From Indioceanicola profundi (lineage in GTDB: Bacteria > Pseudomonadota > Alphaproteobacteria > Azospirillales > Azospirillaceae), in NCBI RefSeq assembly GCF_003568845.1, contig NZ_CP030126.1:3269501-3333500 (forward strand): a stretch of DNA of 64,000 nt, given 5' to 3'. Shown here one piece after another: positions 25,387 to 50,399 of the stretch (positions within the stretch are counted from its first letter, which is position 1; each line of letters begins with the position of its first letter). The notes below the pieces were generated by a model. It was not told the origin of the DNA and made no database searches. It saw nothing but the letters and a program-made list of their open reading frames with translations. The position numbers and the translations under genes are program-made.

Positions 25387-26892
25387 ATGTCCCTCGGGCA
25401 GGCCTATGGGCAGCACGACGCCACCGGTCTGGCGGAGCTTGTCGCCAGACGCGAAGTCTCTCCGGCCGAGCTGGTGGACAGCGCCATCGCCCGGATCGAG
25501 GCGGTGGAACCGGCGCTGGACGGGATCGTGGAGCGGGCATTCGACTGTGCCCGCAAGGCTGCGAAGGAACCCCTGCCGGACGGCCCCTTCGCCGGCGTGC
25601 CCTTCCTGCTGAAGGACAATATGAATGTGGCGGCGGGCATCCCGTACCATAACGGCTCCGCCATATGGCGGGGCTGGACGCCCGACCGGGACAGCGAACT
25701 GGTGGCCCGGTTCCGCCGCGCCGGCCTGATCCTGCTGGGCAGCACCAAGGTGCCGGAACTGTCGTTGATGCCGGTGACGGAGCCCAAGACCTTCGGCCCG
25801 GCCCACAATCCCTGGGACGGGAGCCGGACGCCCGGCGGCTCCTCCGGCGGGTCCGCGGCGCATGTGGCGGCGCGCAGCGTGCCCATGGCGCATGCCACCG
25901 ACGGCGGCGGCTCCATCCGCATCCCGGCCAGCTGCTGCGGCCTGTTCGGGCTGAAGCCCAGCCGCGGGCGCACCCCCAACGGCCCCTATATCGGGGAGGG
26001 CTGGCATGGGGCCAGCATCGCCCATGCGGTCACCCGCTCCGTCCGCGACAGCGCCCGCCTTCTGGATGCCGTTGCGGGGCCGGATGCCGGGGCGCCCTAT
26101 GGCATCGCCCCGCCGGAGACATCCTTCGCCGCGGCGCTGGACCGGCCGCCCGGAAGGCTCCGCATCGCTGTCTCTTCAAAGCCGCCGGTGGACGTCCCGG
26201 TCCATCCCGACTGCATGCGCGCTCTGGACCAGGCTGCCCGGCTCTGCGCCGAGTTGGGGCACGAGGTCGAGGAAGCAACGCCCGACCTGCATCCAGACTT
26301 CCTGAAATGGTTCATGACCGTCTTTTTCGCCGCCGTGGCGCAGGAGTTCGCCATGGCGGAGGCGCAGACCGGCACGAAGGCCAGACGGCAAGAGGTGGAG
26401 ACAGCTACCTGGCTGGCCCGCCTGCTGGGCCGAAGCTTCTCTGCGGAGGATCTGTCCCTGGCGATCGAGCGGCTGCACCGCCAGTCCCGCCTCATCGCCC
26501 CGTTCTTCGAGCGATACGATGTGCTGTTGACCCCCACCCTGGCCCAGCCGCCACTGTCCAGGGGGGCGCTGAAGCCGGCGGGGGCGGAGGCGTTCGCGCA
26601 GGAAATGGCGGCGGTTCTGGGGATGGGCGGGCTGGCGAAGCTGGGGCCGTTCCTGGACCAGGCGGTGATCCGCGCCTTCGGCTTCATCCCCTATACGCCG
26701 GTCTGGAACGTAACCGGCCAGCCGGCCGCCAGTATTCCCCTGCACTGGGCCGCGCCGACACCAGCGGCTCCCGCCGGCCTGCCCATCGGCGTACAGGCGG
26801 TGGGCCGCTTCGGAGAGGAGACGACGTTGATCTCCCTGGCCGCCCAGTTGGAGCAGGCTTGCCCCTGGGCCGACCGCCATCCGCCGCTGTAG
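25387..26892 (+). CDS. Amidase-signature family amidase
   Basis: A 501-aa cytoplasmic hydrolase of amides. The Ser-cisSer-Lys triad is complete: Lys76 in PFLLKDN, the cis-Ser in the GGSSGGSAA loop (Ser153), and the nucleophile Ser176 in TDGGGSIRIPAS. The C-terminal block NVTGQPAASIPL is also typical. An AAAGGGAGG ribosome site sits just before the ATG at 25387. Close relatives act on aliphatic or aryl amides and 6-aminohexanoate-type substrates; substrate choice cannot be read here. It is not GatA in context, since no gatB or gatC is near. Confidence 0.88.
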   Translation: MSLGQAYGQHDATGLAELVARREVSPAELVDSAIARIEAVEPALDGIVERAFDCARKAAKEPLPDGPFAGVPFLLKDNMNVAAGIPYHNGSAIWRGWTPDRDSELVARFRRAGLILLGSTKVPELSLMPVTEPKTFGPAHNPWDGSRTPGGSSGGSAAHVAARSVPMAHATDGGGSIRIPASCCGLFGLKPSRGRTPNGPYIGEGWHGASIAHAVTRSVRDSARLLDAVAGPDAGAPYGIAPPETSFAAALDRPPGRLRIAVSSKPPVDVPVHPDCMRALDQAARLCAELGHEVEEATPDLHPDFLKWFMTVFFAAVAQEFAMAEAQTGTKARRQEVETATWLARLLGRSFSAEDLSLAIERLHRQSRLIAPFFERYDVLLTPTLAQPPLSRGALKPAGAEAFAQEMAAVLGMGGLAKLGPFLDQAVIRAFGFIPYTPVWNVTGQPAASIPLHWAAPTPAAPAGLPIGVQAVGRFGEETTLISLAAQLEQACPWADRHPPL

Positions 26893-26914
26893 CCGGCCGG
26901 CGGAAGCAGCCGGG

Positions 26915-26953
26915 GTGTAAAAGGTCCTTGACAGGTGTAAAGGATGCTTGTCA
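26915..26953 (+). promoter_or_regulatory. Direct-repeat operator overlapping a -35 box, upstream of the XRE/exporter operon
   Basis: Two 19-base copies, GTGTAAAAGGTCCTTGACA (26915-26933) and GTGTAAAGGATGCTTGTCA (26935-26953), match at 15 of 19 positions and repeat at 20 bases. Each copy is itself a loose inverted repeat of TGTAAA and TTGACA. The first contains a perfect -35 hexamer TTGACA (26928-26933); a poor -10 (TCACAT) lies 17 bases on. The gene start is at 26968. The likely binder is the XRE protein encoded at 27657, by autoregulation. Confidence 0.6.
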
Positions 26954-26967
26954 CATAGCGTGACGAG

Positions 26968-27228
26968 ATGAACGCCCGAAGGGGCCAGCCACAGGGAGTG
27001 GCGGCGGTGATCAACCCGGATGCCAGGGATCGTAAGCGGCGGGCCCGCACGCGATACGCGCTGCTGGCCGCGGTCGCCCTGTTCGGGGCCGGCTTCCTGG
27101 CCGGCAGCCGGATTTCCCTGCCGCCGCAGGACGCGCCCTCCCGCCACGGCCCGCTGACCGGAGTGGCGCTGGACATTGCCGCCGCCCTGCTGGTGCTGGA
27201 CGCGACGCTCGACCATCTGCGGGACTGA
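26968..27228 (+). CDS. Small membrane protein of the XRE/exporter operon
   Basis: 86 aa. After a basic N-terminus (RDRKRRARTRY) there is one strong membrane segment at about 30-46. A Pro-rich stretch follows, then a second, weaker hydrophobic stretch near 63-78. No family is recognised. It is first in a same-strand series, 12 bases before the next gene, and directly downstream of the direct-repeat operator. Position suggests a membrane partner of the 138-aa protein that follows. Confidence 0.6.
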   Translation: MNARRGQPQGVAAVINPDARDRKRRARTRYALLAAVALFGAGFLAGSRISLPPQDAPSRHGPLTGVALDIAAALLVLDATLDHLRD

Positions 27229-27240
27229 GGGGGAGAGGAG

Positions 27241-27657
27241 ATGGCGGAGATCACCCATGCCGGCCTCTGGCTCCGCTGGTCCAGCCTGACCCGCCGCGAC
27301 AAGCGCGATGTCCTGGCAACCATCGTCGCAATTGCGGCAGGTATCCTGCTGGCCCGTCTGCCCTTCAGGTTCGGGATCGGGCCGGGCGGCCTCCTGACGG
27401 CCCTGTCCCCGCTGGCGCCGTTGCTGCTGGGCAGCGTGATCTACGCCCGTTTCGTCCTGCGTCAGGATGAGCTGTTCCGGCTCTGCCACATGGTCATGAT
27501 GGTATGGGGCGCCGCCGCCATGCTGACCGCCCTTTTCACCCTGACGCTGCTCCAGCGGGTGCCGGACCTGCCGGTGAACGGTCCGCTGGTACTGGGAGCC
27601 GCCTTCTCCATCGGCTCCATCGCCGGCGGCGTCTGGGCGACGCGGAGATATCTGTGA
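27241..27657 (+). CDS. Four-span membrane protein coupled to the XRE regulator
   Basis: 138 aa with about four membrane segments, after a WSSLTRRDKRDVLATIVAI start. Function is unknown. The ATG follows GGGAGAGGAG, a strong ribosome site. Its stop overlaps the start of the XRE regulator gene (TGATG), so the two are translationally coupled. Small XRE regulators encoded with a multi-span membrane protein are a recurring pairing in bacteria. What they sense is not known to me. Confidence 0.65.
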   Translation: MAEITHAGLWLRWSSLTRRDKRDVLATIVAIAAGILLARLPFRFGIGPGGLLTALSPLAPLLLGSVIYARFVLRQDELFRLCHMVMMVWGAAAMLTALFTLTLLQRVPDLPVNGPLVLGAAFSIGSIAGGVWATRRYL

Positions 27658-27872
27658 TGGAGAACCGGCTGCCCATGCTGCGGGTGGAGCGGAAATGGTC
27701 GCAGGGGGAGTTGGCGGAGCGGCTGGGCGTGTCGCGCCAGACCGTGAACGCCATCGAAACCGGAAAATACGATCCTTCCCTGCCGCTCGCCCTGAAGATC
27801 GGCCGCCTCTTCGCCCTTCCGGTGGAATCCATTTTCCTGCTGCCGGACGAAGCGCCGAAAGCTGCGGAGTAA
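27657..27872 (+). CDS. 71-aa XRE-family transcriptional regulator
   Basis: Almost the whole protein is one helix-turn-helix domain. WSQGELAERLGVSRQTVNAIE (split: helix 2 WSQGELAERLG, recognition helix VSRQTVNAIE) is followed by GKYDPSLPLALKIGRLF and a short tail ending VESIFLL. There is no ligand domain. This compact type (YozG/HTH_3-like) usually represses its own operon. It overlaps the upstream membrane-protein gene by one base, which supports joint expression. The repeated operator at 26915-26953 is the natural candidate target. Confidence 0.88.
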   Translation: MENRLPMLRVERKWSQGELAERLGVSRQTVNAIETGKYDPSLPLALKIGRLFALPVESIFLLPDEAPKAAE

Positions 27873-27967
27873 CGTACAGGGTCGAAGCGGCCCGCACCCG
27901 ACCATCGCCGTCCCACCCCGGCGATCCCGCCCCCGCCACGCCGACATGCGCAACCGCAGGAGGATCA

Positions 27968-29422
27968 ATGAGAAAGGCGACCATCTCCATGTTGAAGGCT
28001 GCCGCGTTGGCGCTGGGCGTTCTGGCCGCGGCTCCCGCGGCAGCGCAGCCATCCGTCGGTAGGCCCTGTCATGTGCCGGGGGTGACGGACCTTGCCACCT
28101 GCCACAGGATCACGGTGCCGGAGGACCGGTCGGCTCCGGCGGGGCGGACAATCGAGCTGCATGTGGCGGTGCTGCCGGCCCGCGGCAGCGCCAAGCCGCC
28201 GGACAGTGCGCTGTTCCTGCTGGCCGGCGGGCCGGGGCAGGCCGCGAACGACATGGGGCCGCTGGTGGGGACGGCGCTCGCGAAGGTGCGGGATTCCAGG
28301 GCCATCGTGCTGATGGACCAGCGCGGCACCGGCCGCAGCAATCCGCTGGCCTGCAGCCTGCCCGGAGACGACGCAATCACGTTGGATCTGAACACGGAAT
28401 CCATGGCGAAGGCGCTGACGGCGTGCCGCGCCGGGTGGAACGCCGACCTTCGCCGCTATTCCACCCTGGACGTGGTGGAGGATATCGAAGCGGTGCGGCA
28501 GGCGCTGGGCTATGCCAAGCTGGATCTGTGGGGCGGTTCCTGGGGCACACGCACGGCGCTTCTCTACATGCGCGCATATCCGGGATCGGTGCGCAGCGCC
28601 GTTCTGGACGGGGTGAGTCCGCCCAACGACCTTCTCCTGACGGGAGAGCCCGCCCATTCCCAGGCGGCGCTGGACGCCCTGTTCGAGGCCTGCGCCGCGG
28701 ATGCCGCCTGTGCCGGGACCTATCCCGACCTGGGCGCCCGCTTCCAGGAGTGGCTTGAGGAGCTGGGGGAGGGCAGCACCGTCACCATGGCGGACGGGCT
28801 GAACGGCAAGGTGGAGACGGTGACGCTCAGCCGCGACGGCGCCGCCCAGTCGGTGCGTGCGGTCCTCTATTCCACCATCACCGCCGCCAAGCTGCCCTAT
28901 GCGCTGGACCGGCTGATCGGCAAAGGGGATGCGACGTCCATCGTGCCCCTGGCCTTCGGAGCCGGCAGCGTCGTGCGCGACACCATGTTCCTGGGCTCCA
29001 CCCTTTCCTCCCTATGCCGGGAGGAGGTGCCGCGGACGGAGGGCGTGCCGCTGGCCGCCGGCTTCACCGGCGAGAGCTGGCTGGCAAGCTGGCGCACGAT
29101 GTGCCGGGACTTCCCCGCCGACCCGCTGCCGGACGGCTATGCGGAGCCGGTCACCACGGATGTGCCGGTGCTGCTGCTCTCCGGCGCGCTGGACCCGGTG
29201 ACGCCGCCTGCATCCGCCGACAAAGCGGCGGCCCACCTGCCGCGCGCCTGGCATCTGGTCGCCCCGGCCACCGGACACATCGTGACGGGCGGCGCGCCCT
29301 GCGCCGGCGATCTGATCGCCGAGTTCGTGGAGGCCGCGGACGGCAGCAGGCTGGATGCCGCCTGCCTGGGCGAGCGGGGCCGTCCGCCCTTCATGACCAC
29401 GCCGCAAGGCCCCACCCCCTGA
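27968..29422 (+). CDS. Exported alpha/beta hydrolase, tripeptidyl-aminopeptidase (TAP)-like
   Basis: 484 aa starting at an ATG directly after GGAGGA. A signal peptide covers about 1-27 (AAAPAAAQ). The hydrolase fold shows LAGGPGQ (85-91, oxyanion loop), DQRGTGRS (117-124) and the nucleophile elbow WGGSWGT with Ser191. The late acid and base are in SGALDPVTPP and ATGHIVTG, matching a TAP-like C-terminal domain. Several cysteine pairs (Cys34/45 and others) fit periplasmic disulfides. Relatives release N-terminal peptides or cleave prolyl bonds. It sits between the XRE gene (95 bases upstream) and the ABC genes (28 bases downstream). Confidence 0.85.
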   Translation: MRKATISMLKAAALALGVLAAAPAAAQPSVGRPCHVPGVTDLATCHRITVPEDRSAPAGRTIELHVAVLPARGSAKPPDSALFLLAGGPGQAANDMGPLVGTALAKVRDSRAIVLMDQRGTGRSNPLACSLPGDDAITLDLNTESMAKALTACRAGWNADLRRYSTLDVVEDIEAVRQALGYAKLDLWGGSWGTRTALLYMRAYPGSVRSAVLDGVSPPNDLLLTGEPAHSQAALDALFEACAADAACAGTYPDLGARFQEWLEELGEGSTVTMADGLNGKVETVTLSRDGAAQSVRAVLYSTITAAKLPYALDRLIGKGDATSIVPLAFGAGSVVRDTMFLGSTLSSLCREEVPRTEGVPLAAGFTGESWLASWRTMCRDFPADPLPDGYAEPVTTDVPVLLLSGALDPVTPPASADKAAAHLPRAWHLVAPATGHIVTGGAPCAGDLIAEFVEAADGSRLDAACLGERGRPPFMTTPQGPTP

Positions 29423-29450
29423 CCCGCACCGGACCGGAGGAGACAAGGAC

Positions 29451-30164
29451 ATGCTTGAGATCAGCGGACTGGTGAAGCGCTTCAAGAAGGTGACGGCCGT
29501 GGACAGGGTCTCCTTCGCCGCACGGGACGGGGAGATCACCACCCTTCTGGGCGCCAACGGGTCGGGCAAGACCACCAGCCTGCGCTGTCTGGTCGGTCTG
29601 CTGCGTCCCGATGCCGGACGGGTGGCGGTGGACGGAATCGAAGTAGCGGCGGACCCGAAGCGGGCGCGGCAGCGGCTTGGCTGGTTCCCCGATGCCTTCG
29701 GCCTGTATCCCCGCCTGACGGTGCGGGAGCATCTGCGCTATTTCGCCCGGCTGCACGGGATGGACGGGCCGGCGATGGAGCAGGCAATCCGGGCCGCCAT
29801 CGCCGAGCTGGGCATGGAAGACATCGCCGACCGGCGGACGGAGGGCTTTTCCACCGGGCAGAGCATGAAGGTGGCCCTGGCCCGCGCCCTGGTGCATGCG
29901 CCGCCCAACCTGATCCTGGACGAGCCCACCCGAGGGCTGGACGTGATGAGCATCCGGCTGCTGCGGGACACGCTCCGCCGCTTGCGGGCGGAGGGGCGCT
30001 GCATCCTGCTGTCCAGCCACGTCATGGCGGAGGTGGCGGAGCTGTCCGACCGGATCGTCTGCATCGCCGGCGGCCGGACGGTGGCGGAGGGCAGCCCGGC
30101 CGAGCTGGTGGCGAGAACGGGCGCCGCCAGCCTGGAGGACGCCTTCGTGCAACTGGCGGCGTGA
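29451..30164 (+). CDS. ABC transporter ATP-binding protein, NatA-like
   Basis: 237 aa, a single ATPase domain. Walker A is GANGSGKTTS (34-43), the signature is FSTGQSMKVALARAL (the usual SGGQ is STGQ, common in the NatA/DrrA export group), and Walker B is NLILDEPTRGLD. Together with the ABC-2 permease encoded next it should form an exporter. Its final codons overlap the leading sequence of the permease gene, with the stop 12 bases before the permease ATG. Substrate is unknown; NatAB exports sodium, while other relatives export peptides or drugs. Confidence 0.92.
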   Translation: MLEISGLVKRFKKVTAVDRVSFAARDGEITTLLGANGSGKTTSLRCLVGLLRPDAGRVAVDGIEVAADPKRARQRLGWFPDAFGLYPRLTVREHLRYFARLHGMDGPAMEQAIRAAIAELGMEDIADRRTEGFSTGQSMKVALARALVHAPPNLILDEPTRGLDVMSIRLLRDTLRRLRAEGRCILLSSHVMAEVAELSDRIVCIAGGRTVAEGSPAELVARTGAASLEDAFVQLAA

Positions 30165-30175
30165 GGAGAAAACCG

Positions 30176-31345
30176 ATGCGCAGGCAGCTCTTCACCGTGC
30201 TGGGCACGGAGTTCATCGATCATAGCCGCGACCGGCGGTCCCTCTTCGCCGCCCTGATGTACGCCCTGTTCGGGCCGGTTCTGGTGCTGGCGATGCTGAC
30301 CATGATCGCCAAGCAGGTCGGCAACGACCGCCCGGTCAGTCTGGCCGTCCACGGCGCGGCGCACGCCCCCACCCTGGTGGCGGAGCTGGAGCGGCGCGAC
30401 ATCAAGGTGGAGCGCCGGGAGGGCGCGGCGGCGGAAATCCCGGCCCTGGCCGGCGCGGACGCCGTCCTGGTCATTCCGCCCGACTATCCCGACCGCTATC
30501 GCGCGGGGGAGCCGGCGGAACTGACCCTGTTCCGGGACGAGCGGCGCGACAGTTCCACCCTCGCGGCCCGCAAGGTCGCCGCCCAGATCGAGAGTTACGG
30601 ATCGGACATCGCCCATGCCCGTCTGATCGCCCGCGGCGTTCCGGCCGAAACCATGCGTCCGATCCAGGTCATCGGCGCGAACGTTGCCGCCGCCGGCGCC
30701 GCCACGCTCCAGATCGCGACCATGCTGCTCTATTTCTTCGTCGCGGCTCCCTTCTTCAGCAGCATGACCGTTGCCATCGACAGCACGGCAGGGGAGCGTG
30801 AGCGGAAATCCCTGCACCCGCTGCTGAGCCAGCCGGTGGACCCCTCCGTGCTGATCCTGGGCAAATGGGCCAATGCGGCGCTGTTCGGGATGGCGGGCAC
30901 GGCGATCGCGGTGGTGCTGGGCATGAACCTGCTGCACTTCGCGCCGCTGGAGGAGCTGCGGGTCAGCATCCCGCTGGATGCGGGAACCCAGATCAGGATG
31001 ATCCTGGTTGTGCTTCCCCTGGCGCTTGCCGCCTCCGCCCTGCAGATCATGCTGGCGCTGCTGGCCAAGAGCTTCAAGGAGGCGCAGACCTACCTGACCC
31101 TGCTGTCCTTCGCGCCGGTGGTGCTGGCCTTTTCCGGCAGCTTCGGCGGGCGGGAGCCGGAGGGCTTCATGGAGGTGGCGCCGGTTCTGGGACAGATCGA
31201 GCTGTTGCGCGCGCTGGTGGCCGACGGGGAACTGGACCTGGGCAAGGTCGCCGTCGCCAGCGTCCTCTGCCTGCTTCTGGCCGCGGCCGCCTTGTGGCAG
31301 GCGACCCGGCAGTTGAAGGATGAAAAAATCCTGGGCGCCGGCTGA
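30176..31345 (+). CDS. ABC-2 type permease, NatB-like
   Basis: 389 aa from the ATG at 30176, preceded by GAGGAGA. It has one membrane segment near residues 25-45, a long extracytoplasmic domain (about 55-180), then five further segments. This is the layout of NatB/ABC-2 permeases with a periplasmic domain. The stretch ERERKSLHPLLSQPVDPSVLILGKW is split as the coupling-helix region after the second segment. It is the last gene of the series and converges on trmB, 21 bases away. Confidence 0.88.
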   Translation: MRRQLFTVLGTEFIDHSRDRRSLFAALMYALFGPVLVLAMLTMIAKQVGNDRPVSLAVHGAAHAPTLVAELERRDIKVERREGAAAEIPALAGADAVLVIPPDYPDRYRAGEPAELTLFRDERRDSSTLAARKVAAQIESYGSDIAHARLIARGVPAETMRPIQVIGANVAAAGAATLQIATMLLYFFVAAPFFSSMTVAIDSTAGERERKSLHPLLSQPVDPSVLILGKWANAALFGMAGTAIAVVLGMNLLHFAPLEELRVSIPLDAGTQIRMILVVLPLALAASALQIMLALLAKSFKEAQTYLTLLSFAPVVLAFSGSFGGREPEGFMEVAPVLGQIELLRALVADGELDLGKVAVASVLCLLLAAAALWQATRQLKDEKILGAG

Positions 31346-31366
31346 GCCCCCGCGCTCCTCGGCGCG

Positions 31367-32074
31367 TCACCCCCGCGGGCGGCGGCGGAAGTTCAGGAAC
31401 ACCGGCGTCCGCCCCTCTTCCCTGGCCTTCTGCTCGTAGCGGGTGCCGGGCCAGCCGTCCGGCGGGTCGCGCCAGTCGGCAGCGGTGCGGGCCAGCCACT
31501 CGAAATCGGGGTAGCGGAAAGTGTGCTCCAGCATCCAGCGGCAGAGCTGCATGTCGTCGGTCGCCAGACGCAGCTCGCCACCGTCCTTCAGCAGGCGCGA
31601 AAGGCGGGGCAGGTTCTCCGGCCCGACGAAGCGGCGGAAGGCGTGGCGGACCTTCGGCCAGGGATCGGGGAACAGCACATAGACCCGGCCCAGGCAGGCG
31701 TCGGGCAGCGCATCCATCGCCGGCCGGGCGTCGTCCGGCACGATGCGGATGTTGGTCAGCCCCTTGGCATCGATATGCTGAAGCAGGCCTGCGGTGCCGT
31801 TGATGAAGGGCTCCGCTCCGATGAAGCCGACATCGGGGTGCGCCGCCGCCGTTTCCGCCAGATGCTCCCCCCCGCCGAAGCCGACCTCGAACCAGAGATC
31901 GCGCTTCGGCGTGTCGAACAGGGCGCCGGCATCAATGCGGCCCCCGCCCGGCGGCACCGTCAGCTCCAGCCGGGGCAGCAGCGTGTCCAGCAGCCCCTGG
32001 CGCTGCTTGCGCAAGGGGCGGCCCTTGCGGCGGCCATAGAGCATCATGCGGTTCGGGGACGTCTCGTCGGTCAT
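31367..32074 (-). CDS. trmB: tRNA (guanine-N7-)-methyltransferase
   Basis: A 235-aa enzyme that methylates G46 of tRNA using SAM. Motif I is FEVGFGGGEHL, motif IV is VYVLFPDPWPKVRHAFRRF, and the substrate-binding residues follow toward GTRYEQKAREEGR near the end, all specific for TrmB. I start at the ATG at 32074 (MTDETSPNRMMLYGRRKG), the usual family N-terminus. The frame continues upstream with Arg/Pro-rich codons that lack support. It lies alone between the exporter operon and the DUF6607 gene. Confidence 0.95.
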   Translation of the reverse strand: MTDETSPNRMMLYGRRKGRPLRKQRQGLLDTLLPRLELTVPPGGGRIDAGALFDTPKRDLWFEVGFGGGEHLAETAAAHPDVGFIGAEPFINGTAGLLQHIDAKGLTNIRIVPDDARPAMDALPDACLGRVYVLFPDPWPKVRHAFRRFVGPENLPRLSRLLKDGGELRLATDDMQLCRWMLEHTFRYPDFEWLARTAADWRDPPDGWPGTRYEQKAREEGRTPVFLNFRRRPRG

Positions 32075-33217: not shown

Positions 33218-35434
33218 TCAGAACCGCACGGTGACGGAGACGCTGGCGTTACGGCCGGGCTGCGAATAGGCGTCCGTCACGTTCGATGCGGCGGACAGCC
33301 CGCGCACATCGCTCCACCACCAGTACTTCTCGTCGAAGAGGTTGAAGAGGCCGGCCCGCAGGGTCGCGCTCTCGCCCAGGTTCCAGTAGGCGGTGAGGTC
33401 CACCAGCGTGAACGGACCCGGCGTGAAGCAGTTCGGCGCACAGGTGCCCGAGACCCGCGACTGCGCCTTGCTGGCCGTCTGGGTCACGGCGAGTTGGCCG
33501 CCGAACCGCCCCTCCGGATCGCGGTAGGTCAGGCCGGCCACGACCTTGACCGGGTCGATGCTGTCCAGCGGCGTCTTCTCCCCGTCGACCTTGTAGTCGC
33601 CGTGGGCGTAGGAGGCGGCGAGGACGGCGCCGATGCCGGTTCCGGACTGGAACTCGACCTTGCCCTCGACACCCCGGATAGTGACCTCCCCCAGATTGAC
33701 GAACTGGAACACGGCCGGGTCGGCAGGGGTCAGGCTGCCGGAAACCTGGACCTGTTCGATGAAGTCGTCGTACCAGCCGGTGAAGCCGGTGACGCTGGCC
33801 GTCCAGGCCCGGTGCCGCAGGCGCACCCCGCCCTCCAGCGTGTCGCTGGTTTCCGGCCGCAGATCCGGATTGGGAGCGGAGCGGTAGTTGAACAGGACGT
33901 TTTCGAACCCGTTGTTCACCTGCGACGGGCTGGGCGCCTTGTAGCCCTGGGCGTAATTGGCGAAGACCCCGATGGCCTCCGTCGCCCAGTAGACGCCGCC
34001 AAGCTTGGGCGAGATGTGCCAGTCGCTGGCCGATGCCGTCTCGAAGGGAAACAGCGGGTCGTTCCCTTCCGGGGCCAGACGGTAGTAATCGACGCGCACC
34101 GCTGGGAAGATGGACAGCGCGCCGTCCAGCCCGGTGATCTCATCCTGGAGATAGAGGCCGGCCAGCGTGTAATCGGTGTCCGGGAAGGCCTTGATCGGGA
34201 AGCTTTCGCCCACCGGCGGGGTCTGCCCGTTGCGAAGCCCTTCCTGCCGGGTCCGGGAGACGTCGCCGCCATAGCTGAACCGATGGGTCCAGCCGCTGCC
34301 CAGCTCGGCGCTGGCGGCGTCGATGCTGAGGCCGGTGACCTCGTTGTCGAACAGGCTGTCGCGGGTGCGGTCGGCGGCAACGTTGCGGTCTTCCGCCGAG
34401 AACTGCCGGACCCGTCCATCCTGATGGTAGGCGGTCCAGTGCAGCGACTGCAACGCCGCGAGCCCGGCATCATAGCTGTGGTCGAAGCTGATGCGGGTGC
34501 GCCGGGTCTCATCCTCCGCCACCAGCCCGATGACGCTGGCGGCGGTCAACGGCGGCCGGGCGATGGCGCTGAGGACATCGGTGTCCACATCCTGGTTCAG
34601 ATGGTCCAGGGTCAGGCGGAACCGGTGCGCCTCCGTCGCCTGGAAGACCAACTTGGCCAGCACCGCGTCGGAGGAGATGTCCTGCGGGTTGGCCTCGGTC
34701 CGGTCCACATTGGCGGCATCGTTGTCGCCCTGGGTTTCCTGCTCCTGCGCGTCCCGGCGGCTGTAGGCCAGCAGGGCCTCCCACCGCCCGGACCGTCCGG
34801 CCAGGATGGCGCCCTTGCTCCAGCTCTCATCGGCGGAGCTGTAGCCGAGCTTGGCTTCGCCATGCAGGCTCTCGCCATCCTTCAGGAAGTCGCCGGGATC
34901 GCGGGTGACGAAGCTGACCGCGCCGGCCACGCCGTCGCTGCCATAGAGGGCGGAAGCCGGGCCGCGCAGGATTTCCACCGACTTCAGCAGGTCCAGATCG
35001 GTGAAGCCGCCGCGGCCGGTGGACTGGGGACCGAAGCTGAAGGCGTCCGGCGTGCGGATGCCGTCCACCTGGATCAGCACCCGGTTCCCCTCCAGCCCGC
35101 GGATGGTGAAGCCGCTGTTGCCGTCGCGGCCGGTGGAGGCGCCCGCGGCGGTGAAGCGCGACGGGCTGCTGCGGACGGATACGCCGGGCTCGTACCGGAC
35201 CAGATCCTTGATGTCGGTGACGAGCTGGTCCTGGATCTCCTCCGCCGTGGTCACGCTGACCGTGGCCGGCACCTCCAGCACATCCTTCCGGGTGCGCGTC
35301 GCGGTGATGGTGATCTCTTCCAACTCCGCCGCCTCCGTAGCGGCAGAACCGCCTGCGGCCATCTGGGCCGTGGCGGCGAAGGGCAGGCCTGTGAGCAGCA
35401 GCGGGAGCGTGGCCCGCGCCAGATAGGTCGTCAT
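33218..35434 (-). CDS. TonB-dependent outer membrane receptor, heme-receptor-like
   Basis: 738 aa. A signal peptide covers 1-24 (ATAQ). A TonB-box-like EEITITATRTRK comes at about 39-50. The plug domain includes DLVRYEPGVSVR and IRGLEGNRVLIQVDGIR. A beta-barrel of about 570 residues ends in a terminal Phe (VTVRF). YKAPSPSQ and NPDLRPETSDTLEGG correspond to the FRAP and NPDL blocks of heme/hemoglobin receptors (HutA/PhuR type); this assignment is by resemblance only. It is first in an operon with the DUF6607 gene. A 31-bp palindrome lies 48 bases upstream of the start, which argues for iron control. Confidence 0.88.
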   Translation of the reverse strand: MTTYLARATLPLLLTGLPFAATAQMAAGGSAATEAAELEEITITATRTRKDVLEVPATVSVTTAEEIQDQLVTDIKDLVRYEPGVSVRSSPSRFTAAGASTGRDGNSGFTIRGLEGNRVLIQVDGIRTPDAFSFGPQSTGRGGFTDLDLLKSVEILRGPASALYGSDGVAGAVSFVTRDPGDFLKDGESLHGEAKLGYSSADESWSKGAILAGRSGRWEALLAYSRRDAQEQETQGDNDAANVDRTEANPQDISSDAVLAKLVFQATEAHRFRLTLDHLNQDVDTDVLSAIARPPLTAASVIGLVAEDETRRTRISFDHSYDAGLAALQSLHWTAYHQDGRVRQFSAEDRNVAADRTRDSLFDNEVTGLSIDAASAELGSGWTHRFSYGGDVSRTRQEGLRNGQTPPVGESFPIKAFPDTDYTLAGLYLQDEITGLDGALSIFPAVRVDYYRLAPEGNDPLFPFETASASDWHISPKLGGVYWATEAIGVFANYAQGYKAPSPSQVNNGFENVLFNYRSAPNPDLRPETSDTLEGGVRLRHRAWTASVTGFTGWYDDFIEQVQVSGSLTPADPAVFQFVNLGEVTIRGVEGKVEFQSGTGIGAVLAASYAHGDYKVDGEKTPLDSIDPVKVVAGLTYRDPEGRFGGQLAVTQTASKAQSRVSGTCAPNCFTPGPFTLVDLTAYWNLGESATLRAGLFNLFDEKYWWWSDVRGLSAASNVTDAYSQPGRNASVSVTVRF

Positions 35435-35482
35435 GGTTACCAACCTGTTATCTCGAACGAAGTGGGTAGGGCCAATAGTTCC

Positions 35483-35513
35483 GATGCAATTGCGAGTCAA
35501 TCGCATTTGCATC
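35483..35513. promoter_or_regulatory. 31-bp Fur-like palindromic operator
   Basis: Arms GATGCAATTGCGA and TCGCATTTGCATC flank GTCAA; 12 of 13 arm positions pair. The TTGCGA-N-TCGCA core and outer TGCAA resemble alphaproteobacterial Fur-family sites. It lies 48 bases before the TonB receptor ATG and about 310 bases before rpsO. No Fur, Irr or RirA gene is in the window, so the binder is inferred. Confidence 0.65.
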
Positions 35514-48956: not shown

Positions 48957-50399
48957 ATGTCCGAAAAGAAAGCCATGCTGGGCCACAAGGTCCGCCGCCT
49001 TCGCCGGGAGCTGAAGCTGACCCAGGCCCAGATGGCGGAGGAGCTGTCGATCAGCCCCAGCTACCTGAACCTGATCGAGGCCAACCAGCGGCCCCTGACC
49101 GTGCCCCTGCTGCTGAAGATCGGGCAGCTCTACGACATCGACCTCTCCAGCTTCGCGGAGGATGACGAGCACCGGGTGGTGGCTGGGCTGAAGGAGGTCT
49201 TCGCCGATCCCCTGTTCGAGATGTCGGACATCAAGGGCCAGGACATGAAGGAGCTGGCGGCCGTCGCCCCCACGCTGGGGCAGGCGGTGGTCACGCTCTA
49301 CCGGGCCTATCTGGAGGCGCGGCAGGATCTGGGCGCCTTGGCGGAGCGGCTGGCCGACGGCGACAAGATGCAGATCATGAACGCCACCGCCTTCCCGCAG
49401 GAGGAGGTCGGCGAGTTCTTCCAGGAGCAGTCCAACCACTTCCCCGAGGTGGAGACGGCGGCCGAGACCCTGTGGATCGACGGCGACCTGGACCAGTCCG
49501 ACCTGTACGGCACCCTTTCCGCCTTCCTGGAGAAGCACCACGGCACGCGGGTGAAGCTGATGCCGGTGGAGGTGATGGGCAGCACGGTGCGCCGCTACGA
49601 CCGGCATTCCAAGCGGGTGCTGATTTCCGAGATGCTGCCGCCGGCCGGGCGCAGCTTCCAACTCTCCGCCCAGATCGCCCTGCTGCGCCACCGGGAACTG
49701 CTGACGGCGATCGTGGAGGGGGCGGGCTTCAGCAACGAGGGCGTGAAGCGCATGGCGCTGGCCGGCCTGTCCAACTATTTCGCCGGCTGCGTGATGATGC
49801 CCTATGGCCGCTTCCTGGAGGCGGCGAAGAAGGCTCGTTACGATATCGAAATCCTTCAGAACCGCTTCGTCGCCAGCTTCGAGCAGGTGGCCCACCGCCT
49901 GACCACCTTGCAGCGGCCGGGGGCGAAGGGCGTGCCCTTCTTCTTCTTCCGGATCGACAATGCCGGCAACGTGTCGAAGCGGTTCAGCGCCGCCCCCGGC
50001 TTCCACTTCGCGCGCTTCGGCGGGGCCTGCCCGCGCTGGAACGTGCATGACGCCTTCCGCATGCCGGGCGCCATCCAGACCCAGTTGGCGCAGATGCCGG
50101 ACGGCACGGTCTATTTCTCCCTGGCCCGCCGGGTGATCAAGCCGGGCGGCGGCTGGAAGAACCCGCCGCGCCAGTTCGCCATCGCGCTGGGCACGGACAT
50201 CGTCCATGCGGGCCAACTGGTCTATGCCGATGGGGTGGACATCCACAACATGGCGGCGGCGACACCCATCGGCGTGAACTGCCGCATCTGCCCCCGCCTG
50301 GACTGCACCCACCGCGCCTTCCCGCCCCTGAACCACCGGCTGGACGTGGATGAGAACATCCGGGGCGTGTCCAGCTATGTGGGGGCGGGGATCGGGTGA
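48957..50399 (+). CDS. RamB/ScfR-like XRE regulator of acetate/fatty-acid metabolism
   Basis: 480 aa. An N-terminal XRE helix-turn-helix spans about 8-65 (LTQAQMAEELSISPSYLNLIE). A central IrrE/ImmA-like (DUF955) region follows, with RHSKRVLISEML and LRHRELLTAIVEG; a HExxH protease motif is not evident. The C-terminal DUF2083 domain carries NCRICPRLDCTHRAFPP, with three cysteines. Proteins of this layout include RamB and ScfR, which control isocitrate lyase and related genes by sensing acyl-CoA or carbon state. Divergent placement from aceA supports that role here. Confidence 0.85.
   Translation: MSEKKAMLGHKVRRLRRELKLTQAQMAEELSISPSYLNLIEANQRPLTVPLLLKIGQLYDIDLSSFAEDDEHRVVAGLKEVFADPLFEMSDIKGQDMKELAAVAPTLGQAVVTLYRAYLEARQDLGALAERLADGDKMQIMNATAFPQEEVGEFFQEQSNHFPEVETAAETLWIDGDLDQSDLYGTLSAFLEKHHGTRVKLMPVEVMGSTVRRYDRHSKRVLISEMLPPAGRSFQLSAQIALLRHRELLTAIVEGAGFSNEGVKRMALAGLSNYFAGCVMMPYGRFLEAAKKARYDIEILQNRFVASFEQVAHRLTTLQRPGAKGVPFFFFRIDNAGNVSKRFSAAPGFHFARFGGACPRWNVHDAFRMPGAIQTQLAQMPDGTVYFSLARRVIKPGGGWKNPPRQFAIALGTDIVHAGQLVYADGVDIHNMAAATPIGVNCRICPRLDCTHRAFPPLNHRLDVDENIRGVSSYVGAGIG

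Follow-up and report, generated by a model that had tools for sequence, protein, structure and literature searches.

We analysed a stretch of 64,000 nucleotides from Indioceanicola profundi (assembly GCF_003568845.1, contig NZ_CP030126.1, positions 3,269,501 to 3,333,500 of the forward strand; hereafter the window) and focused on a cluster of six genes which encode two small membrane proteins, a 71-aa XRE-type repressor, a TAP-like hydrolase and the ATPase and permease of a NatA/NatB-type ATP-binding cassette (ABC) transporter (Table 1). Most likely, this locus represents a CylR1/CylR2-like switch in a new form, whose output is an envelope hydrolase and an exporter. Judged by sequence comparison, the locus is real, modular and regulated in a predictable way. 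It joins two modules, namely a membrane protein with a CylR2-like repressor and a TAP hydrolase with the ABC transporter. All six genes had been proposed in an initial annotation of this DNA and were confirmed by the open reading frame (ORF) listing of the window. The described overlap between the XRE gene and the preceding 138-aa membrane protein gene was also found and amounts to one shared base (ATG/TGA).

Tandem candidate operators and putative promoter region

The initial annotation reported a 19-base direct repeat with 20-base spacing that covers the -35 box. The repeat is real, with 15 of 20 bases identical between copies 20 bp apart, and within the 75-bp gap at 26893-26967 the best 19-base tandem match of 15 was equalled in 2 of 2000 dinucleotide-preserving shuffles. 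However, a better description is a tandem of two imperfect palindromes of 18 bp each, TGTAAA-N6-TTGACA and TGTAAA-N6-TTGTCA. In the former, the right half coincides with the TTGACA of the putative -35 box, as had been claimed. A -10 box would be expected 17-18 bp from it, where it overlaps the second operator copy and fits the consensus poorly. A slightly stricter pattern, TGWMAA-N5-CTTGWCA, had two matches in the 5.37-Mb genome, both of them at this locus.

For comparison we used the loci of the nearest XRE genes in a species-level genome collection (the best 80 of 545), which belong mainly to Alphaproteobacteria but also to Lysobacterales, Pseudomonas, Chloroflexi and others. Half-site spacing tests in this set revealed one dominant arrangement, TGWMAA-N6-TTKWCA. 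It occurred 36 times in 70,220 b taken from the 900 bases upstream of XRE genes and 6 times in 800,202 b elsewhere (5 times in about 790-800 kb when the same DNA was divided slightly differently), and 28 of the 80 loci carried such a strict site. Similar results were obtained for a second set of 20 Azospirillaceae loci (20 of 31 places), which had not been used in motif discovery. Here 20 sites, distributed over 14 loci, were found in 17,933 b upstream of XRE genes compared to none in 235,163 b elsewhere. Moreover, the operator was present at 10 of 11 natA loci with an XRE gene (window included, L013 being the exception) and at none of 36 without one; locus L005 also has operators though it lacks a recognisable XRE gene. 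Because of the enrichment of sites upstream of XRE genes and their uniqueness in the genome, the XRE protein looks like a dedicated local regulator. Repression through the repeat, as suggested initially, is well supported by these comparisons, as the site is conserved, lies in the right place and is matched only here in the genome.

The putative repressor and its proposed membrane partner

The XRE protein consists of a bare HTH_3 domain. Its nearest solved relatives by sequence were a 'PbsX family' regulator (9k3w, E 6.4e-20) and CylR2 (E 2.5e-13), with which it shares 32 of 59 residues over its positions 3-61, as counted from the alignment.

The 138-aa protein encoded directly upstream is predicted to be a helical membrane protein with four transmembrane segments. 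Its AlphaFold model (mean predicted local distance difference test score 88.9) shows helices at residues 18-38, 48-54, 58-73, 77-104 and 114-137. An ORF ending at the XRE start was present in 71 of the 80 loci; 50 of these 71 ORFs contained a DE[FLYM] motif, and 42 of the 50 overlapped the XRE gene by 4 bp. The motif was also found in 17 of the 20 loci of the second set and in all five sequences of a Gram-positive partner alignment. These are the unselected figures, since the invariance of DE in our alignment A1 is a product of selection, its rows having been picked for DE[FLYM]. Besides, apart from the window there are ten XRE-linked TAP-NatAB loci, and in nine of them a DE-motif membrane protein adjoins the XRE gene; the exception is L153, where none was found. 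Among 46 selected rows the density of lysine and arginine was 0.17 around DE, 0.25 at the C-terminal end and 0.04 in the loop between helices 3 and 4, a charge distribution that places the motif on the predicted cytoplasmic side.

Searches of these 46 members against Pfam and NCBIfam gave scattered weak matches alone, the most frequent one in 2 of 46. The 138-aa protein matched no Pfam family at E 0.1 and thus not DUF2178 (PF09946) either, which was likewise absent from the families listed for the 46 members at E 0.01. A weak profile match (hhalign E 2.6e-4, probability 42%) connects the membrane family with five Gram-positive partners of CylR2-like proteins, two of which do not match DUF2178; in this alignment DE faces DE. 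No match to the 138-aa protein was found in a plasmid collection. None of the 35 listed matches of its model among PDB structures reached E <= 0.001, and the best VIA-align hit (Z 6.7 over 57 residues) lies within the stated background for helical models. The missing structural match is, however, no proof of a new fold.

The hydrolase and transporter module

The hydrolase matched PF08386 (46.5 bits) and PF00561 (79.7 bits), both above cut-offs, and the catalytic triad Ser191, Asp409 and His437 as well as ten cysteines were invariant in 34 of 34 TAP homologues. Structures among its sequence relatives include Hip1 and carboxylesterase A, and a signal peptide read by eye suggests that the protein is exported. 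The two transporter genes matched ABC_tran and ABC2_membrane_3 in Pfam. The best NCBIfam models for natA were DrrA, RbbA and others, with all 25 listed matches below their cut-offs.

In a phylum sample of 398 genomes a close natA was present in 26, our genome included, and all 26 places other than our own were taken as natA loci. The order TAP-natA-natB was the same in 25 of these 26 proteobacterial loci, since natB was always present and TAP was directly upstream in all but L165. Unlike the window, 22 of the 26 had no XRE gene within 7 kb upstream and only four did; this absence is weaker for L112, L113, L118 and L170, where less than 4 kb upstream of natA was covered. In 82 genomes of the family and 385 of the class, every place except those in our own genome, G009 and G032 was examined; these thirteen further alphaproteobacterial natA-natB loci had neither TAP nor XRE in the surrounding DNA covered.

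Nevertheless, the XRE-linked trio of TAP, natA and natB was found in two Azospirillaceae (the window and L007), next to a third, L005, that has the trio but no recognisable XRE gene, and in nine Lysobacterales-type loci. Five of the latter belong to the 80-locus set (L013, L020, L068, L071, L080) and four to the phylum sample (L145, L153, L161, L163), and all nine group together in the tree. As the same combination occurs in Lysobacterales, it is not an accident of one genome. In trees of natA and natB as well as of all three trio proteins, the Azospirillaceae and Lysobacterales groups were separate. The approximately unbiased test (LG+G4) rejected a single clade of the 11 kept XRE-linked rows, L005 counted in (p 2.4e-6), as well as a single clade of the Azospirillaceae plus the Lysobacterales clade (p 4.4e-11), a group that was named after the tree had been seen. 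The test covered 23 of 34 TAP-bearing rows, 3 long and 8 other rows having been left out by hand, and the deep trio tree is uncertain owing to long-branch rows. On the simplest reading of these trees, switch and trio would have come together twice, with losses among the Lysobacterales; a less simple alternative would be one old joining followed by many losses.

In L007 (genome G009) an S8 subtilase with an apparent signal peptide lies between XRE and TAP (L007:8758-10653), and by reading the operon contains further small membrane protein genes with a DE motif.

Hydrolase genes near related XRE genes

Of the 80 loci, 48 carry a hydrolase gene of one of three types on the same strand no more than 4.5 kb downstream of XRE; among the 69 loci for which 3.5 kb or more of downstream DNA was available, the figure is 40. 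TraB/GumN proteins were found in 29 loci, alpha/beta hydrolases in 19 and both of these in 5; together they account for 43 loci, to which TAP adds 5. For detection we used hidden Markov models; those for TraB/GumN (nine proteins) and alpha/beta hydrolases (up to nine) derive from the same 80 loci, and those for TAP from the 34 proteins at natA loci, of which 5 also belong to the 80. In L012 the stop-to-stop frame of the TraB/GumN gene starts ahead of XRE, so that this gene went into the upstream count. When ten of the downstream proteins were compared with Pfam, six were identified as TraB/PrgY/gumN and two as alpha/beta hydrolases, and two gave nothing; a separate scanned downstream set of 71 ORFs was picked by eye. 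As a control, the upstream side was inspected on either strand, where such a gene was present in 20 of 80 loci (17 of 67 with at least 4.5 kb upstream). On the same strand these were 7 TraB/GumN and 1 alpha/beta hydrolase genes, and on the opposite strand 13 alpha/beta hydrolase genes. As the 80 loci are mutually related, these counts do not represent independent events; export was assessed visually for part of the proteins.

In 13 loci (L031, L035, L043, L057, L075, L079 and seven others) an opposite-strand alpha/beta hydrolase gene lies upstream, mostly at about 1 kb, in addition to TraB/GumN downstream. In Caulobacter vibrioides (L081) a related xre has both an alpha/beta hydrolase and a TraB/GumN gene on its downstream side. 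On a Deinococcus plasmid (L224:340-2701) an erythromycin-esterase-family protein with an apparent signal peptide is directly followed by a small DE-motif protein and a related XRE.

Comparison with known systems

The site of CylR2 is an inverted repeat; at the present locus, conserved palindromic sites lie over the proposed -35 box and are candidates for repressor sites. Similarities to the CylR1/CylR2 system are a very small XRE repressor and a small adjacent membrane protein which control, or here would control, locally an operon with an exported hydrolytic enzyme, a protease in the case of CylR1/CylR2, and an ABC transporter. As published, CylR1/CylR2 of Enterococcus faecalis controls the cytolysin operon with its exported serine protease and ABC transporter and is believed to respond to a peptide; CylR1 has three predicted membrane helices, and its signalling to CylR2 is described there as not understood (PMC3709268). 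A preprint describes the prevalence of this system in other gene clusters as not explored (PMC11343131). The locus differs from it in the partner, which here has 138 aa and four predicted transmembrane helices, and in the ABC type. Moreover, neither a lantibiotic precursor nor a CylM-type enzyme was noticed by reading, which did not include a dedicated search.

In pairs from Streptomyces and Priestia plasmids (L223, L226, L229) the XRE proteins are 50-58% identical to ours and adjoin a small DUF2178-matching membrane protein with a DE motif. There the XRE gene comes first, unlike in the window, where the 138-aa protein has no DUF2178 match. A similar principle applies in Bacillus subtilis, where the autorepressor SdpR, which is not of XRE type, is released by the membrane protein SdpI. 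A limited literature search found no published description of the present gene combination.

Proposed mechanism and alternatives

We lean towards a repressor that acts locally, controls its own gene, is gated from the membrane and switches on an envelope response of hydrolase and exporter, and hold this to be somewhat probable. The CylR2-type XRE protein would bind, presumably as a dimer, to both palindromic operators over the -35 and -10 boxes and shut its own promoter, i.e. act in repression rather than activation. Its four-helix partner would reside in the inner membrane with the Asp-Glu motif at a cytoplasmic helix end, sense an envelope signal and, possibly by direct contact, take the repressor off the DNA. 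By analogy with CylR1, the likeliest signal would be a membrane-active peptide. Read-through along a presumed single transcript would then allow expression of the exported TAP-type hydrolase, which may act in the periplasm by degrading or trimming a substrate of peptide or ester type, and of the NatAB-type transporter, which may move the same substrate or its fragments.

Several findings weigh against this reading. A consensus sigma-70 scan of 26700-31500 detected no promoter, the proposed main promoter included; because no complete promoter was found, its -10 box would be weak or of another type. One terminator-like site (27810-27826) lies inside xre, and this number equals the chance expectation for the same region. 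A strict operator match was missing in 52 of the 80 XRE loci and in 6 of 20 loci of the second set. L005 has kept both operators, an intact membrane gene and the output, while its own XRE is reduced to a start-like remnant, MENRL (L005:7623-7742); the other XRE gene of that genome (XRE module L215) might act there. In L006 (G027) the switch has no TAP or close NatAB nearby, and a search of its genome at E <= 1e-65 revealed no close natA. In the 20 other Azospirillaceae loci the surroundings of the switch were free of all three hydrolase types. Finally, the likeness to CylR1/CylR2 at the level of sequence concerns the CylR2 side of the pair.

The peptide-responsive or peptide-exporting stress system envisaged in the initial annotation is retained in part. 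The closeness of the repressor to CylR2, one of its solved relatives and a member of the CylR1/CylR2 pair, makes a response to a peptide plausible. But the six genes do not form one conserved unit: in the phylum sample the regulator is absent from most loci with the hydrolase and ABC genes, and the 20 Azospirillaceae switch loci lack such a hydrolase. Relatives with separated hydrolase or ABC genes had been named beforehand as evidence against the proposal. Such relatives were found and count against an obligate system, although the combination still recurs in Lysobacterales.

A stand-alone switch, in which the regulator pair autoregulates the membrane proteins only and TAP-NatAB is a neighbour with its own control, appears rather unlikely to us. 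The same 20 loci would agree with it, as would the absence of XRE from 22 of the 26 sampled natA loci, in one of which TAP is missing too, and the 95-bp gap between XRE and TAP. However, the gene order recurs in Lysobacterales, and 48 of 80 XRE loci have the downstream hydrolase genes described above. For the gap itself (27873-27967) a separate promoter had been considered, and the consensus scan revealed no promoter-like site there, though it also misses the proposed main promoter.

We regard as improbable a peptide-export or pheromone system in which a peptide would leave the cell through the ABC transporter, be trimmed by the hydrolase and be recognised by the membrane protein, with autoinduction as in the cytolysin operon. 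It would be in line with a CylR2-like repressor next to a membrane partner, with the L007 subtilase and with a Priestia plasmid (L226:1-2489) on which a peptidase-type ABC transporter, an S8 peptidase, a related CylR2-like XRE and a DUF2178 membrane protein adjoin. The likeness of these two to the cytolysin operon is suggestive of the same function but no proof of it. Reading of the cluster, again without a dedicated search, brought up neither a gene for a precursor peptide nor a modification enzyme, the transporter is of NatAB type and not a peptidase-containing exporter, and TAP-NatAB occurs without the sensor in 21 of 26 sampled loci. Lastly, a toxin-antitoxin pair of an XRE antitoxin and an overlapping membrane protein toxin, for which the small overlapping genes and matches to Y4mF/HigA/HipB antitoxin models might speak, was rejected as highly improbable, as these matches stay below curated cut-offs (best 35.2 versus 71.65 bits needed), the nearest solved relatives are the regulators named above and in L005 the membrane gene has stayed intact with no recognisable XRE next to it.

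Beyond the membrane-gated repressor proposed for this locus, a broader idea is possible but doubtful. CylR2-type repressors might form a widespread and so far undescribed envelope-sensing switch, held or released by diverse small membrane proteins via a shared cytoplasmic Asp-Glu motif and acting on dedicated operators at their own promoters. Such switches might have been placed repeatedly before unrelated exported hydrolases (TraB/GumN, alpha/beta hydrolases, TAP with NatAB, perhaps erythromycin-esterase-like proteins), so that a sensed membrane-active peptide or pheromone gets destroyed.

Gene layout and neighbouring features

Table 1. Features of the cluster and its upstream region (positions within the window)
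Feature	Position	Strand	Basis
Candidate operator 1, TGTAAA-AGGTCC-TTGACA, imperfect palindrome; right half = -35	26916-26933		Pattern match in own genome
Candidate operator 2, TGTAAA-GGATGC-TTGTCA, 20 bp downstream; within spacer, reaches expected -10	26936-26953		Pattern match
Putative promoter: -35 TTGACA 26928-26933; -10 weak, ~26951-26957	26928-26957	+	Sequence reading
86-aa protein with hydrophobic segment	26968-27228	+	ORF listing
138-aa membrane protein, proposed signal-receiving partner; RQDELFR motif at residues 74-80	27241-27657	+	ORF listing, AlphaFold
71-aa XRE (HTH_3) repressor, CylR2-like	27657-27872	+	Pfam, sequence match to CylR2
TAP-like alpha/beta hydrolase, 484 aa from ATG 27968; signal peptide by eye	27968-29422	+	Pfam
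NatA/DrrA-type ABC ATPase, 237 aa	29451-30164	+	Pfam, NCBIfam
NatB-type ABC-2 permease (ABC2_membrane_3), 389 aa from ATG 30176	30176-31345	+	Pfam

In the ORF listing the permease starts at GTG 30161, and the hydrolase and XRE frames start at earlier ATGs. With the -35 box in the position given, ATG 26968 would leave almost no leader; therefore, the real start of the first gene may be GTG 27007, behind AGGGAG. The 86-aa product had no match in Pfam or NCBIfam. L007 has a small first gene at the equivalent place without BLASTP similarity to it (the comparison was limited to that gene, with no wider search), and by reading L005 has none. Beyond the cluster, a minus-strand ORF at 33218-35512 resembles a TonB-dependent receptor (translation reading only), and a distant second XRE-type match with 38% identity lies at 48987-49154 within an open frame of 493 codons.

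Implications

Many CylR2-like pairs in environmental bacteria now have predicted operators and a candidate contact motif. As the operator pattern is confined to its own promoter in the I. profundi genome, the question of how a CylR1-type protein signals to a CylR2-type repressor could be tested cleanly here. Furthermore, the frequent, albeit not general, nearness of hydrolase genes hints at the purpose of such switches.

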